In this document: positions 4,357 through 40,853 of the stretch, in pieces | Position numbering within the stretch: position 1 is the first letter of the stretch | Layout of the letters: each line of letters begins with the position of its first letter | NCBI GenBank assembly: GCA_902797995.1 | Contig: CADBUX010000009.1 | Span: 1-40,853, forward strand | Direction of reading: 5' to 3' | DNA from: an uncultured Erysipelotrichaceae bacterium | Lineage (GTDB): Bacteria > Bacillota_I > Bacilli_A > RF39 > UBA660 | DNA length: 40,853 bases | Notes under the pieces: generated by a model | Database searches by the model: none | Told to the model about the DNA's origin: nothing | The model's input: the letters and a program-made list of their open reading frames with translations, nothing else | Made by a program: the position numbers and the translations under genes

Positions 4357-5221
4357 TAATTACTTTTTCTTTTAAATCCTTGTCAAATTCTTTATTTTTA
4401 ATCATTTCTATTTCTAGTTTATATGGAGCATGTTCATCAACATAGGGTGTTTCTAGTATTTTAGGAATGTTTTCTAGTTTTTTATGATGAATAATTTTGA
4501 TTAAAGCATCAAATCCTAGATATCCAAATCCAATATTTTCATGTCTATCTTTATGGGCTCCAAGAGGATTTTTACTATCATTTATATGAATACATTTTAC
4601 TTTATTTAATAATTCCATGTCTTCAAGTTTTTTTAAGAACGCATCAAAATCGCTCATATCATAACCTGCATCTGATAAGTGACAAGTATCAAGACATATT
4701 CCTATATTTAGATATTTTACGCCATTTATAATAGTTTTTATTTGTTCTAAGGTCTTACCTAACTCTGTACCTTTTCCTGCCATAGTTTCAAGTAATATAT
4801 TTGTCTTAGTAGTGGGAAGTATTTCATTTAAAGCATTAATTATATTCTTTAAACCTAGTTCTTCTCCAAGACCCACATGTGAACCTGGATGAAGCACTAA
4901 TTTTTCTATACCTAGTTCTTCACACCTCTTACATTCTTGCTTTAAGAAGTTTATTGAAAACTGATATTTATTTTCCTCGGAATTAGCAAGATTTATAATA
5001 TATGGAGCGTGTACTATTACATCTTTTATATTAATATTATTTTCTTTCATTTTGTTCCATGCTTTAATAGTTAAATCCTTGCTTAGAGGAATCCTATTAG
5101 TGTTTTGAGGAGCTCCAGTATAGAACATAAATGTTGTGCTTCCATATGATAATGCTTCATCAAGTGAACCTAAAAGTTGGGTATCTTTTTTAAATGATAC
5201 ATGTGACCCTATTTTTAACAT
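4346..5221 (-). CDS. nfo: Endonuclease IV (AP endonuclease)
   Basis: The 291-residue protein matches the AP endonuclease 2 family along its length. Endonuclease IV cleaves DNA 5' of abasic sites in base excision repair and binds three zinc ions in a TIM barrel. Visible metal-binding motifs are GSHVS at residues 5-9, VIVHAPYIINLA, LVLHPGSHVG, LLETMAGKG, CLDTCH and HINDSKNPLGAHKDRHENIG. The N-terminal MLKIGSHVSF is canonical. It lies 11 bases downstream of ffh and is probably co-transcribed with it. The extreme C-terminus overlaps the broken membrane peptide. Assignment is firm from the motifs. Confidence 0.95.
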   Translation of the reverse strand: MLKIGSHVSFKKDTQLLGSLDEALSYGSTTFMFYTGAPQNTNRIPLSKDLTIKAWNKMKENNINIKDVIVHAPYIINLANSEENKYQFSINFLKQECKRCEELGIEKLVLHPGSHVGLGEELGLKNIINALNEILPTTKTNILLETMAGKGTELGKTLEQIKTIINGVKYLNIGICLDTCHLSDAGYDMSDFDAFLKKLEDMELLNKVKCIHINDSKNPLGAHKDRHENIGFGYLGFDALIKIIHHKKLENIPKILETPYVDEHAPYKLEIEMIKNKEFDKDLKEKVINEK

Positions 5222-5232
5222 AACTCATCTCC

Positions 5233-6540
5233 TTAAAATGGCATTTTAAAGTTACCATTTGCCATTTGTTTCATCATTTTTCTACTTTGTTCAAATTGAT
5301 TTAATAGTCTGTTTACTTCTTGGACAGATCTTCCGCTACCTAAAGCAACACGCTGTTTTCTACTTGCTTTCATTATCTCTGGATTTCGTCTTTCTTCTTT
5401 TGTCATAGAAAGTATTATAGCTTCAACATGAGCAAGATCTTTTGGATCTATATTTATATTATTAAGACCCATTTTTTTAGCACCGGGAATCATCTTTAAA
5501 ATACTTTCTAGTGAACCTAGTTTTTTAATTTGTTTCATTTGAGAAAGAAAGTCTTCTAAATCATACTTACCACTTCTCATCTTTTTTAATGATTTTTCGG
5601 CTTCTTTTTCATCAATTACTTCATTTGCTTTATCTACTAAAGATAATACATCTCCCATTCCTATAATACGTGATGCCATTCTATCAGGAAAAAATGCATC
5701 AAGGCCATCAAGTTTTTCAGAAGTTCCTATAAACTTAATTGGAACATTAGTTAAATGACGAACAGATAATGCTACTCCTCCACGAGTATCACCATCAAGT
5801 TTTGTAAGAATAACTCCAGTAAGTTCAAGATTTTCATTGAATCCTGTTATTACATTAATAGCATCTTGCCCCATCATAGCATCTATTACTAGAAGTGTTT
5901 CCTCAGGTTTTATTTCTTCTTTTATGTTTTTTAACTCATCCATTAATTCTTCATCTATATGAAGACGACCTGCAGTATCTATTAAAACATAATCATAACC
6001 ATTTTCTTTAGCATATAAAAGAGCATTTTTACTTATCTCTACAGGACTCGCTTTACCTTCTTCATATACTTCGATATTTAATTCTTTACCTATTTGTTTT
6101 AATTGATCTATCGCTGCCGGGCGATATACATCACAAGCTACTAAAAGTGGTTTTTTGGAGTGTTTTTTTCTTAAAAAGTTAGCAAGTTTTCCTATTGTTG
6201 TAGTTTTACCTGAGCCTTGCAGCCCTACAAGCATAAGACAAGCAGGATTACCAACGATATTAAGTGGTGCTGCTTCTCCCCCAAGAAGCTCTTCTAATTC
6301 ATCACGAATAATACCTACAAACATTTCTCCAGGTGTTAGACTTTTCTTTACTTCTTCTCCCAAAGCTTTTTCTTTTACTTTAGAAGTAAATTCACGAACA
6401 ACTTGGTAGTTAACATCGGCTTCAAGAAGAGCTAAGCGAACTTCTCTTAACATTGGATCTATGTTTTCTTCTGTTATTTTTCCATGTCCTTTGATATTTT
6501 TTATTACTTTTTCTAGTCTATCACTTAAGTTTTCAAACAT
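5233..6540 (-). CDS. ffh: Signal recognition particle protein Ffh (SRP54)
   Basis: This GTPase binds the signal sequence and 4.5S RNA, then delivers ribosomes to FtsY at the membrane. The order is N domain (1-90), G domain with GLQGSGKTTT at about 106-115, DTAGRLH, and TKLDGDTRGG, and an M domain from about residue 300 with MIPGAKKMG and the RKQRVALGSGRSVQEVNRLL RNA-binding helix-turn-helix. Length 435 is a little short of the usual 440-455 because the methionine-rich tail is brief. Start ATG follows GGTGATATAA. It heads a two-gene unit with nfo. Assignment is secure. Confidence 0.97.
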   Translation of the reverse strand: MFENLSDRLEKVIKNIKGHGKITEENIDPMLREVRLALLEADVNYQVVREFTSKVKEKALGEEVKKSLTPGEMFVGIIRDELEELLGGEAAPLNIVGNPACLMLVGLQGSGKTTTIGKLANFLRKKHSKKPLLVACDVYRPAAIDQLKQIGKELNIEVYEEGKASPVEISKNALLYAKENGYDYVLIDTAGRLHIDEELMDELKNIKEEIKPEETLLVIDAMMGQDAINVITGFNENLELTGVILTKLDGDTRGGVALSVRHLTNVPIKFIGTSEKLDGLDAFFPDRMASRIIGMGDVLSLVDKANEVIDEKEAEKSLKKMRSGKYDLEDFLSQMKQIKKLGSLESILKMIPGAKKMGLNNINIDPKDLAHVEAIILSMTKEERRNPEIMKASRKQRVALGSGRSVQEVNRLLNQFEQSRKMMKQMANGNFKMPF

Positions 6541-37167: not shown

Positions 37168-37584
37168 TTATATATCAAGTAATTCATTTATTCTATATAT
37201 TTTATCACTTATTTCATCATTTGTAATATTGTTTTCTAAATGCTTAATAATCTTTTCTATTAATATAAAACTATATAATAAACTATCAGTATCAAAATTG
37301 TAATTAGAATAAGTATTACTATCAGCTTCATATTTATCAATAATCAAATTATTATCATCAATTATGTAATTAATATTACTATCTGCAAGTTTACTGGTAA
37401 CACTGAAAATATTCTTAACAGGAAAACCACATTTAAATGTATTTTTTATCTTTTTAATCTTATAATTAAATAATTTGTTTATAATCAATGCATCTTTTGA
37501 AAAGCATTCATAAAAGCTACCTACTTTTATGAATATAAGATAATCATTATATACCGATTTATATTTATAATACTTTTCTAGCAT
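37168..37584 (-). CDS. Stand-alone MutS domain I protein (DGR-associated)
   Basis: The 138-residue protein matches only the mismatch-recognition domain I of MutS: YKSVYNDYLIFIKVGSFYECFSKDA (residues 8-32) followed by KCGFPVKNIFSVTSKLADSNINYIIDDN, equivalent to the AGVPYHA...LVKKGYKVAICEQ region of MutS. The Phe-x-Glu that stacks on and contacts a mismatched base is kept (Phe24-Tyr-Glu26). The ATPase, clamp and connector domains are absent; the last ~45 residues are a helical tail. Its start overlaps the RT stop by 7 bases with GGAGG in the RT's last codons, so it is translationally coupled. MutS-like accessory genes (MSL) have been noted in DGR surveys, as I recall; a role in mismatch handling is inference. 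Confidence 0.8.
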   Translation of the reverse strand: MLEKYYKYKSVYNDYLIFIKVGSFYECFSKDALIINKLFNYKIKKIKNTFKCGFPVKNIFSVTSKLADSNINYIIDDNNLIIDKYEADSNTYSNYNFDTDSLLYSFILIEKIIKHLENNITNDEISDKIYRINELLDI

Positions 37585-38729
37585 ATAAAACCTCCTACTG
37601 TTTGATAATATAAGTTATTACAATTACCATACATAAGAATACCTTTGTAACTAGAAAGTAACCTTTTATAATCAAAATAATCAATGTATTTATTATTATA
37701 TAATAAGTTTATATTTTTAGTTTTCTTCTTAAACTTTTTCTTTGTATTATTCCTTAATTTCATAATAATATGATTATTTTTAATATAGAATCTATATCCT
37801 AAAAAATCTATTCCATTTTTGATACTATCTATTCTAGTCTTCTTTTTGTTTATTTCTAATTCATAATCTTTTCTTAATTTATTAGTAATGCAATTTAAAC
37901 AGTACTTTAAATATTCTTTAGAATGATGTAATAAAATAAAATCATCCATAAAATTAAGTAAAAACCTAATATGCAAATCTTCTTTTATATAATGATTTAT
38001 TTCTAAAAGATATATAAGTCCAAAACATTGTGATGTTTGATCACCAAGGGGTGCTCCTTTATTATATTTATATATAGGTACTTCAGAAGTCTCTTTAATT
38101 AAAGATTCTTTATTTTTAAGATTAGAATCATTCAAATAATTAATTCTATTATTTATTAAAGAATTAATCTTATTGTTTATATAATTATGATTAGTAGAAT
38201 CAATAATACTAAATAATACTTTTAAAGCATCTTTATCTTTTATATTATCTAATAAAATTCTTTTTAATATATTATGATCTATATTATAAAAGTACTTACT
38301 TATATCTATTTTTAAAACATAAAAGTTATCATATTTATTTTTTATTTCATTAAGATATTTTTTTAATAACTTAATACCATAACTAGTACCTTTACCTTTT
38401 CTTGTAGCTATCATACTATTTGGATATTTAGGCTCAAACGTTTTAACTAAAATATGTTCTGCAATTAAATGATTTATTATTTTATCTTCTATCTCTTGTG
38501 CCATTACTATTCTACATTTTGGATCTGTTATCATAAAAATATTATATTTACCAAATGATAAGTTATTATTCATTAATCTATTTTTAATATTTATTATATG
38601 TTCTGTTTTATATAATTCAAACTTATCTACTTTAGATTTATTTCTAACAGTTGTGCATACTTTATTAGTCATAGAAACAATGTTATTTAAATCATAACAA
38701 GCACTGTATAAATTATTTGATCGTTTCAT
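37578..38729 (-). CDS. DGR-type reverse transcriptase
   Basis: The 383-residue enzyme has the RT palm motifs: KIDISKYFYNID with Asp142, GAPLGDQTSQCFGLIYL with L228-GDQT-SQ234, FMDD at 260-263 and LGYRFYI at about 310-316. The [I/V/L]GxxxSQ in the fourth motif, in place of QGxxxSP of retroviral and group II RTs, is the hallmark of diversity-generating retroelement RTs and is linked to adenine infidelity. There is no endonuclease, maturase or RNase H domain. It overlaps avd by 17 bases and the MutS-domain gene by 7, forming one coupled operon. It would copy the TR RNA into error-prone cDNA. Confidence 0.96.
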   Translation of the reverse strand: MKRSNNLYSACYDLNNIVSMTNKVCTTVRNKSKVDKFELYKTEHIINIKNRLMNNNLSFGKYNIFMITDPKCRIVMAQEIEDKIINHLIAEHILVKTFEPKYPNSMIATRKGKGTSYGIKLLKKYLNEIKNKYDNFYVLKIDISKYFYNIDHNILKRILLDNIKDKDALKVLFSIIDSTNHNYINNKINSLINNRINYLNDSNLKNKESLIKETSEVPIYKYNKGAPLGDQTSQCFGLIYLLEINHYIKEDLHIRFLLNFMDDFILLHHSKEYLKYCLNCITNKLRKDYELEINKKKTRIDSIKNGIDFLGYRFYIKNNHIIMKLRNNTKKKFKKKTKNINLLYNNKYIDYFDYKRLLSSYKGILMYGNCNNLYYQTVGGFIC

Positions 38730-39108
38730 AATTAAACCAACCTCTTATCATTTTATCAAGACCCAGTAAATGATTTGAATAACTTAAAAACTTCTTTTCA
38801 GATAATAAATCTTTTCTTAATGCTTCTTCTAGATAGAAATTAAGCATTTGTATAGAAACTACTATTTCTTTTTTTATAGAAATATCTTGAAATATATTAG
38901 CACGATATATATTTTCAAGTATGTCATAACAACAATTAATTATTCTTTCTTTAAGCACTTTATAATCATTAGAAAAGTTAGTAGTATTTTTTTCAATAAA
39001 TCTAATAGTTTTTCTAGCATTTCTAGCTATTATAAAGTTTTCATGTATAACATATTTTTCTTTTAATTTATTAAGTTTTTCTATCTTTTTATTGGAAATA
39101 TCTTCCAT
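38713..39108 (-). CDS. avd: Avd-like accessory variability determinant
   Basis: A ~131-residue, basic, all-helical protein upstream of the RT. It resembles the Avd / bAvd four-helix-bundle family (related to the S23 ribosomal intervening-sequence protein): IARNARKTIRFIEKNTTNF...ERIINCCYDILENIYRANIF...EIVVSIQMLNFYLEEAL...LGLDKMIRGWFNYE. Avd of the Bordetella phage DGR forms a pentameric basic barrel that binds RNA and the RT and is required for mutagenic homing. I use the ATG at 39108 (GAGGTGTTTCTT upstream); the GTG at 39117 is inside this site. The match is by helix pattern, size and position rather than by a strict motif. Confidence 0.8.
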   Translation of the reverse strand: MEDISNKKIEKLNKLKEKYVIHENFIIARNARKTIRFIEKNTTNFSNDYKVLKERIINCCYDILENIYRANIFQDISIKKEIVVSIQMLNFYLEEALRKDLLSEKKFLSYSNHLLGLDKMIRGWFNYETIK

Positions 39109-39127
39109 AAGAAACACCTCACTTCAA

Positions 39128-39200
39128 TAAAAAAAGTAGTAACGATAGAAAAAGAAGATATTCATATAAATATTACTAACCTAATTTTTCGTTTACTACT
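39128..39200 (-). terminator. Hairpin with T tail between TR and avd
   Basis: Arms AGTAGTAACGA (39135-39145) and TCGTTTACTACT (39189-39200) pair over 11 bases with one bulge, with a ~43-base AT-rich loop and seven T in RNA sense. It can end the TR RNA or attenuate avd-RT expression. Confidence 0.5.
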
Positions 39201-39291
39201 ATATATTTTGTGATAAAATCACAAGGGATATCTTTGTTTCTATATCTTAAACGATTTAACCTTAATCAAATCATAAGTAATTATAGAAAAT

Positions 39292-39453
39292 CTGGGGCAC
39301 GGAAAGCTACTACTCATTGCATTCTGAATTGCCATTGTTATTCGCATTGCATTCTGTACTGTCATCATTAGCATTGACATTGCCATTCATATTCGCATTA
39401 GCATTGAGACCCGAAGCGGAACAATTGATGTTGTTCTCGTTAACGGAGCAAAC
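39292..39453 (-). repeat. DGR template repeat (TR)
   Basis: A 162-bp direct copy of 39711-39872. The two copies differ at 28 positions, each an A of the TR on the coding (minus) strand. No other base type differs, 51 A and 111 non-A by my count. Read in the frame of the target gene the TR is full of AAT/AAC codons (about 19 Asn among the last 47 codons), the codons that adenine mutagenesis spreads best. GC content is well above its surroundings. It is non-coding here: the upstream target-like frame is absent. The TR is read into RNA and used by the RT as template. The first 25 bases (39292-39316) are identical to the VR and form the putative initiation (IMH-like) end. Confidence 0.97.
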
Positions 39454-39531
39454 CTTACAATTTCATTCAAGATATCCCTATATAGACTCTGACAAAGGAT
39501 AAGTTATGTCTAGAGTTTATACCATGTTTTT

Positions 39532-39616
39532 TCCATTTTTAACTACCATCGTTAGTACATATTACATATTATCGATAACATAGTCTACCAACCAAGTAAG
39601 TTTTGTTAAAAATGGA
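39532..39616. repeat. 12-bp inverted repeat between VR and TR
   Basis: TCCATTTTTAAC (39532-39543) and GTTAAAAATGGA (39605-39616) pair perfectly over 12 bases around a 61-base spacer that has its own TTATCGATAA palindrome. It could structure the TR RNA leader or the transcript beyond the target gene. Confidence 0.4.
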
Positions 39617-39649
39617 GCCTGCGACTACACTTGCGTTCGTCGCTTATTC

Positions 39650-39690
39650 GGACCTTTCGGTCCTCAATATCTTTTGCTTTTCGCAAAAGA
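39650..39690 (-). promoter_or_regulatory. Two GNRA-like hairpins beyond the VR (target-site candidates)
   Basis: On the coding strand GGACC-GAAA-GGTCC (39650-39663) has a GAAA tetraloop, and arms TCTTTTGC/GCAAAAGA (39670-39690) form a perfect 8-bp stem with loop GAAAA. The second lies 20 bases beyond the VR 3' end. In the Bordetella phage DGR a hairpin with an 8-bp stem and GAAA loop just after the VR is needed for efficient homing. Confidence 0.6.
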
Positions 39691-39710
39691 GGATTTAAGA
39701 TTTAGAGATG

Positions 39711-39872
39711 CTGGGGCACGGAAAGCTACTACTCAAAGCAATCTGAATCGCCATCGCTATTCGCATCGCAACCTGCACTGCCATCACTAGCACCGACAGA
39801 GCCACTCAGATCCGCACCAGCAAAGAGACCCGAAGCGGAACAATAGATGCCGTCCTCGGTAACGGAGCAAAC
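39711..39872 (-). repeat. DGR variable repeat (VR)
   Basis: The copy of the TR that forms the 3' end of the target gene, covering its last 47 codons, the stop and 18 bases beyond. Of 47 codons, 21 differ in amino acid or base from the TR, all by A-to-N changes on the coding strand. The 25 bases at the 3' end (39711-39735) match the TR exactly. Two stop codons in tandem (TAGTAG) close the gene. Confidence 0.97.
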
Positions 39873-40853
39873 ATTGTTTTCTATCGCATTTGGTCCGAAG
39901 GCTTCTAGTAAAGTGTTATAATTTTCTTGATAATACGGTGCTGGATTTTCTGTATTATAACCTGCATTTGCTGTTTCTACTCCTTTTAAACAATATAATG
40001 TATTATTTCTTATAAAACATGCATCATTTCTTTCTACTTTACCATCATTTCCTATTTTATGTCCTAAAAAGTATGTTTTATTTAGTGTTGTATAATCTTC
40101 TGTATAATCAAAGCCTCCAAATGTTCCAGTTTTTCCTTGACAAGAATATCCTGCTGGTGAACCAAATCCTTCTAATGCTGTTTGACATTCACTTTGATTT
40201 TCATAAGGTCCCACTGGTGCTTCTTGATTTCCATCTGTTATTACATATTTAGTACCAGATACGGGTGTTATTGAAGTACCTATACTTACATTATTTGTTC
40301 CATATCTATATACATATTCTGGATATGCACTTTTTTGTTTTTCAGTAGATGTTAATCCTATCTTAAACTTGTATTGTAGTTTTGTTGATTGATTCCAACT
40401 TGATGCATCTACTGCTCCATCTATCCATGCTCTTAATTTAAACTTATCTTGTACTGTTTCATGAGTACTATCATGACTATGCTTTCCTGTATATAGTTTA
40501 TAATTTGTTAAATTTGATATTAGAGTTGGTGCTACTTTTTGTGTTCCAGAATAATCTGTTAAATATACTTTTATTTGGTTGTCATTTAAAGATGTATATC
40601 CATTATCTACTTCTAGCTTTTGTATATTTATATTATATTCTATATCTATATCTTTTACTGTTTTACTTGTTACTGCAAAATCAAATGTTTCTGTCTGAGC
40701 TTTACCTTCATTATCACTCATAGGTAGTGCATTTTCTATTGTTATTATATTTGTATTACTTTCTAATAAATCTAAACTTATATCATTTGTTGATATTGTG
40801 TTTACTAGTGTTCCATTAAATACATAGTTCCATACTGCAAATGATGCTCCTAC
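39729..40853 (-). CDS. DGR target: secreted surface protein (TasA/SipW-like), partial
   Basis: The open frame continues past the right edge, so the N-terminus is missing; 374 residues are seen. The visible start (GASFAVWNYVFNGTLVNTISTNDISLDLLE) resembles the mature N-terminus of TasA/camelysin-type proteins exported with a SipW-type signal, followed by a beta-rich domain (FDFAVTSKTVKDIDIEYNINIQKLEV). The C-terminal ~190 residues are Cys-rich, with paired cysteines (ECQ...YSC; ACF-x-LYC; VCS-x-IYC; GC...DC). The VR supplies the last 47 residues (VCSVTEDG...DCFE). No C-type lectin signature is seen. The four cysteines of the VR are TGC or TGT codons with no A, so the mutagenesis cannot remove them. 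A surface or fibre binding role is inferred. Confidence 0.75.
   Translation of the reverse strand, partial: VGASFAVWNYVFNGTLVNTISTNDISLDLLESNTNIITIENALPMSDNEGKAQTETFDFAVTSKTVKDIDIEYNINIQKLEVDNGYTSLNDNQIKVYLTDYSGTQKVAPTLISNLTNYKLYTGKHSHDSTHETVQDKFKLRAWIDGAVDASSWNQSTKLQYKFKIGLTSTEKQKSAYPEYVYRYGTNNVSIGTSITPVSGTKYVITDGNQEAPVGPYENQSECQTALEGFGSPAGYSCQGKTGTFGGFDYTEDYTTLNKTYFLGHKIGNDGKVERNDACFIRNNTLYCLKGVETANAGYNTENPAPYYQENYNTLLEAFGPNAIENNVCSVTEDGIYCSASGLFAGADLSGSVGASDGSAGCDANSDGDSDCFE

Follow-up and report, generated by a model that had tools for sequence, protein, structure and literature searches.

The window, by which we mean the whole stretch of 40,853 nucleotides that was analysed, very probably carries a chromosomal diversity-generating retroelement (DGR) whose target protein bears a four-cysteine C-terminal domain. 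The novelty is in the target scaffold; the element itself is a true DGR. We think it probable that this cellular DGR clade acts on a scaffold other than the C-type lectin fold. The surface subunits would carry at their tip a beta-meander pinned by disulphides, in which one face of the sheet is randomised while the opposite face stays constant, and which was recruited from a domain family that also occurs free of DGRs.

On the minus strand, the order of the elements is target gene, variable repeat (VR), three hairpins, template repeat (TR), bAvd, reverse transcriptase (RT) and MSL. The genes and the two repeats are the following.

39729 to 40853, minus strand: target gene, 374 aa, from its open reading frame; truncated 5' by the end of the contig
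39711 to 39872, minus strand: VR, from base-by-base alignment with the TR and the codon table
39292 to 39453, minus strand: TR, which would encode VCSVNENNINCSASGLNANANMNGNVNANDDSTECNANNNGNSECNE
38713 to 39117, minus strand: bAvd (accessory variability protein), 134 aa; PF22296, E 7e-9; NF033474, E 4e-9
37578 to 38729, minus strand: RT, 383 aa; PF00078, E 2e-15; phrog_1423, E 5e-75
37168 to 37584, minus strand: MSL accessory, MutS domain I, 138 aa; PF01624, E 2e-11, above the Pfam cut-off

The N-terminus of the target is missing because the reading frame runs off the end of contig C9 (40853). bAvd also matches phrog_3206 ('Avd protein of DGR', E 7e-14), and its score against PF22296, 36.5 bits, lies slightly below the Pfam cut-off of 40. 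The translated RT contains the motifs GDQTSQ (of the GxxxSQ type) and FMDD (of the xxDD type). MSL proteins are already known as accessories of DGRs (PMC10053308), and a small MSL-like reading frame is also present at the DGRs of relatives. The initial annotation had reported a GxxxSQ RT, an Avd-like protein and the right gene order, all of which the profile matches confirmed; its description of the DGR as complete is supported by the A-only TR/VR differences, the GxxxSQ/FMDD RT, bAvd, the hairpins and the relatives with the same layout.

The cassette has parC, RNase H and PS decarboxylase genes as neighbours, with murB, murG and ffh farther away; the element is therefore chromosomal and cellular rather than phage-borne, and these genes rule out a prophage origin. 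The host is a small gut-type bacterium (MAG of 1.07 Mb, Bacilli-like, 96% complete). Pattern-based scans of viral contigs returned no relative of the RT or of the target, and five DNA-pattern matches there were rejected, the domain not being encoded at those sites.

The TR (39453-39292) and the VR (39872-39711), read on the minus strand, align without gaps over 162 bases, so that the coordinates, length and spacing of the two 162-bp copies noted earlier, with 257 bases between them, were all reproduced. Our recount on this strand also agreed with the 28 mismatches claimed, each at an adenine of the TR (28 of 51 A, as against 0 of 111 other positions, with the remaining 23 adenines the same in the VR). 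The changes comprise 17 A>G, 8 A>T and 3 A>C, and the hypergeometric probability that 28 of 28 mismatches land on A is 9.7e-18. The VR consists of the 47 final codons of the target, the stop codons TAGTAG and an invariant tail, CTTTCCGTGCCCCAG. Since the 111 unchanged positions include third codon positions and the untranslated tail, the VR must have been copied from the TR recently. The element had been called 'working or recently active'; recent copying is thus borne out, whereas that it still works we can only infer. TR and VR do not differ in their 3' tails as far as 39292/39711, and a difference of the IMH versus IMH* kind is absent. In Bordetella, IMH* is described as a similar copy of IMH; we took the difference between the two as a trait of that element, and did not count it as needed for DGR membership.

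Sixteen of the 17 in-frame AAY codons of the TR are altered in the VR, no stop codon can be reached by any A>N change in its 28 A-holding codons, and the four Cys codons contain no A; about 10^26 protein variants are reachable. The AAY codons alternate with invariant Cys, Ala, Val and Gly codons, and within LnAnAnMnGnVnAn they occupy every second position. Such alternation, considered with the predicted strands described below, suggests that one face of a beta sheet is probably what is diversified.

The target, on which the initial annotation was silent, is made of an N-terminal surface-protein part (about residues 1-172) and the diversified C-terminal domain (about residues 255-374). This domain, the last 120 residues, has no match in Pfam, NCBIfam or PHROG, and a sequence search of solved structures gave nothing significant for it, for the DUF6273-type targets discussed below or for the N-terminal part. 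Of 291 genomes from the bacterial family, 20 matched a profile of the domain, with up to 11 copies per genome, mostly at the C-terminus of putative surface proteins and including copies without a DGR; the VR-coded domain family is thus widespread and mostly outside DGR control. Its consensus shows two or three beta strands and a helix (Y..NK..LL.AFG..NC), followed by C-x8-9-C, GL.A.A..GxVxA and C.V...G.S.C. Within the genome itself, paralogues of the target lie on contigs C34, C13, C7 and C4, that on C13 being a full-length relative without a matching TR. Among nine homologues not known as DGR targets, entropy was higher at A-holding than at A-free TR positions (2.37 vs 1.36 bits, one-sided P 1e-5), indicating that the TR adenines are placed where the domain tolerates change.

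As to the N-terminal part, the target of a sister element in genome G012 is placed in the SipW-dependent BsaA family by matches above cut-off to TIGR04090 and TIGR04088; the window target, whose N-terminus is missing, does not match. From G012 and from the paralogues at L050, the window target is probably a SipW-dependent, TasA/BsaA-like exported surface subunit. In L050 (G000:C4:30000-35000), a gene for a SipW-like signal peptidase adjoins several genes for TasA-like small surface proteins, and this region is probably the export system for the DGR target.

AlphaFold models were built on an alignment of two sequences. For the window domain the mean pLDDT was a moderate 64, with 70-93 in the core, and for the domain of the relative L045 it was 84.7, with a pTM of 0.81 (values for the top model of five; the remaining four scored much lower). 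Both models show strands, one helix and then six short strands across the VR, that is, a beta-meander. A Foldseek search of the models against the PDB and viral models gave no match with E < 0.001. The VIA-align matches listed included the CPAP G-box (Z 5.7, rmsd 2.4, 51 residues), OspA (Z 5.1, rmsd 2.2, 46 residues) and polo boxes (Z about 5); we rejected kinship to these proteins, reading Z values of 4-6 as generic meander shape.

The DGR could be genuine and its target domain nonetheless a very divergent, truncated C-type lectin fold. A 2021 survey placed annotated DGR VRs systematically on C-type lectin folds, and its authors, Roux et al., expected VR domains without annotation to be variants of the same fold (PMC8144416); besides, the variable beta-hairpin on the lectin surface of phage targets offers a partial parallel (PMC10743442). 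We nevertheless regard this alternative as unlikely. DUF6273-like domains were shown to resemble C-type lectins (PMC10743442), and when the domain was compared by hhalign with the DUF6273/C-lectin-like DGR targets that this bacterial family also has, the probability was 0.3%. The models, with their one helix and short meander strands, have unrelated meanders as their best matches among those listed. C-lectin-like VRs, moreover, end in a conserved (G/S/A)-(V/A)RPV segment, beyond which the protein continues, whereas the VR of the window ends the protein with C...C. No C-type lectin appeared among the VIA-align matches listed, an absence that is weak evidence when taken alone.

The RT has a match in 18 of 60 related genomes, with no match in the same-genus genomes G001-G004. 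Ungapped scans for pairs with A-only mismatches recovered TR/VR pairs in many of the matching genomes, for example at L045 (17 A vs 1 other difference over 153 bases), L054 (15/0), L057 (14/0), L055 (10/0), L134 (18/0) and L022 (21/1), so that an A-specific process is general in the family and not the chance of one contig. A maximum-likelihood tree was built from 29 RTs. The six whose target has the four-cysteine domain form one group (100/100) together with L044, which is without an assigned target, and the nine with DUF6273/C-lectin-like targets fall outside this clade. The kind of target thus follows the RT lineage.

The sister elements (L045, G012/L052, G222/L120, G137/L123 and L043) have RTs 63-72% identical to that of the window and share the TR-RNA, the four-cysteine domain and, as far as their contigs reach, the gene order. 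They differ in the N-terminal parts of the targets (of the BsaA type in G012) and, in the case of G222, in having extra TR/VR cassettes distant from the RT. The DGRs with DUF6273 targets (L054, L055, L057, L058, L127 and L132-L134) likewise belong to the same host family and possess an Avd and an RT; their RTs, however, are only 39-53% identical to the window RT and lie outside its clade, their VR is within a DUF6273-type domain instead of the four-cysteine domain, and MSL, seen at L054, L055, L057 and L058, comes before avd rather than after the RT.

Two of these loci showed peculiarities of their own. In L052 (G012; 5186-5289 vs 5475-5595), the VR lacks some 17 bases that belong to an A-rich stretch in the TR, the remaining differences being A-only; the RT may have slipped or jumped on these adenines. 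In L055 (528-2537 and 4625-4714), the DGR target has the N-terminal motif of type IV prepilins (PF07963), and the TR follows the RT rather than preceding it.

Several structured elements were recognised behind the VR and around the TR.

39671 to 39689, minus strand: hairpin 1 behind the VR, CTTTTGC-GAAAA-GCAAAAG, from sequence and fold
39650 to 39663, minus strand: hairpin 2 behind the VR, GGACC-GAAA-GGTCC, from sequence and fold
39621 to 39643, minus strand: hairpin 3, GCGAC-GAACGCAAGTGTA-GTCGC, from sequence and fold
39469 to 39478, minus strand: 5' arm of the TR-bracketing stem, GGGATATCTT, from pairing in five relatives
39225 to 39234, minus strand: 3' arm of the same stem, AAGATATCCC, from pairing in five relatives
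39208 to 39224, minus strand: short conserved hairpin of the TR RNA, TTGTGAT/ATCACAA, with compensatory changes at 3 pairs
39136 to 39199, minus strand: third conserved stem, GTAGTAA/TTACTAC, then a T run; a terminator-like 3' end of the TR RNA

The stem-loops behind the VR are similar to the BPP-1 hairpin that homing requires, and DGR target hairpins have the loop consensus GRNA (PMC3240598). Hairpin 2 matches this consensus; as is characteristic of DGRs, the VR forms the 3' part of the target gene and has a GRNA-loop hairpin behind it. Hairpin 1 is repeated where contigs C7 and C5, from the same genome, end; the GAA...TGTAG loop of hairpin 3 recurs, with changed stem letters, in four relatives and on the same two contigs. 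Conserved sequence extends between hairpin 3 and avd.

The TR is enclosed by the 10-bp stem 39469-39478/39225-39234, which pairs in five of five relatives with compensatory changes. Over the whole TR-flanking RNA there are 24 pairs, 7 of them changed on both sides, and 93% of cells pair in this small sample of five sequences; because the pairs were picked after viewing the same sequences, the percentage is inflated, but the compensatory changes are not. None of 500 shuffles reached the observed score, and slid versions gave 40-58%. A search of Rfam gave no match.

Compared with the mtd/avd/brt element of Bordetella phage BPP-1, the window shows the same A-specific TR/VR divergence, an Avd, an RT of the same logic and, behind the VR where the target gene ends, a hairpin whose loop is of the GAAA type (PMC3240598). 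It differs in lying on a cellular chromosome, in the additional MSL protein, in the several hairpins that follow the VR and in the stem that encloses the TR; no relation was detected between the target domain and the C-type lectin fold that Mtd has.

In the proposed mechanism, the TR would be transcribed to an RNA with its two ends joined by the 10-bp stem, and the RT and Avd, perhaps assisted by MSL, would copy it to cDNA with random bases opposite the adenines. The invariant 3' tail and the hairpins that follow the VR would then guide the cDNA into the place of the VR, leaving the TR intact and the cycle repeatable. The new protein would be exported as a surface subunit, probably SipW-dependent and TasA/BsaA-like, in which the A-free Cys, Ala, Val and Gly codons keep the core of the beta-meander and the AAY-coded face is randomised. 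Cells with different binding faces might thereby vary in adhesion, in their host or bacterial partners, or in phage avoidance.

The element might instead have died recently, its VR and TR being relics of past homing and its RT disused. This appears quite improbable, as all genes are open, the RT retains GxxxSQ and FMDD, the 111 non-A positions are free of differences down to the untranslated tail, and the RNA pairs are intact. Coincidental duplication followed by ordinary mutation, despite the closeness of the two copies, is refuted by the A-only pattern (P about 1e-17) and by its recurrence at the same place in relatives, leaving this explanation a negligible chance.

If the non-lectin reading is true, the disulphide-pinned beta-meander with alternating fixed and variable residues would be a second natural scaffold besides the C-type lectin, and its perfect alternation a natural design for a binding library. 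The system suggests, in addition, that gut Bacilli with tiny genomes vary their surface in a programmed way; a literature search found no paper on DGRs in these bacteria.

Two other contigs of this genome, C7 and C5, end in a hairpin block of the window type beside VR-like DNA, which implies that further VRs probably exist, perhaps with a second TR, and were lost at assembly breaks. At G000:C7:42697-42803 (end of L005), the contig breaks at a copy of the block with a different tail, GCCCTCTTTTTGCCCCAG. At G000:C5:1-132 (start of L006), a VR-like piece is joined in inverted orientation to the block, the join being either an assembly chimera or real; with 8 non-A differences from the window TR, this piece would need another TR. 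Remote copies of the window TR were sought in the genome's own paralogues, and no A-only match was present in C34, C13, C7:1-3000, C4 or C5:29000-33500.

G222 (L120, L121, L122 and L130-L133) has five DGR-type RTs in a 1-Mb genome. Its contig C8 carries a VR+TR cassette 90% identical to that of C80, the RT locus, with no avd or RT nearby, possibly a satellite template acting in trans, and its contig C17 has another VR-bearing target. In G012 (L052 and L088-L095) there are eleven domain matches, some of them arranged in tandem in a single protein and several lying where a contig ends; two of the eleven show weak TR-like matches, so that more remote VRs or TRs are likely.
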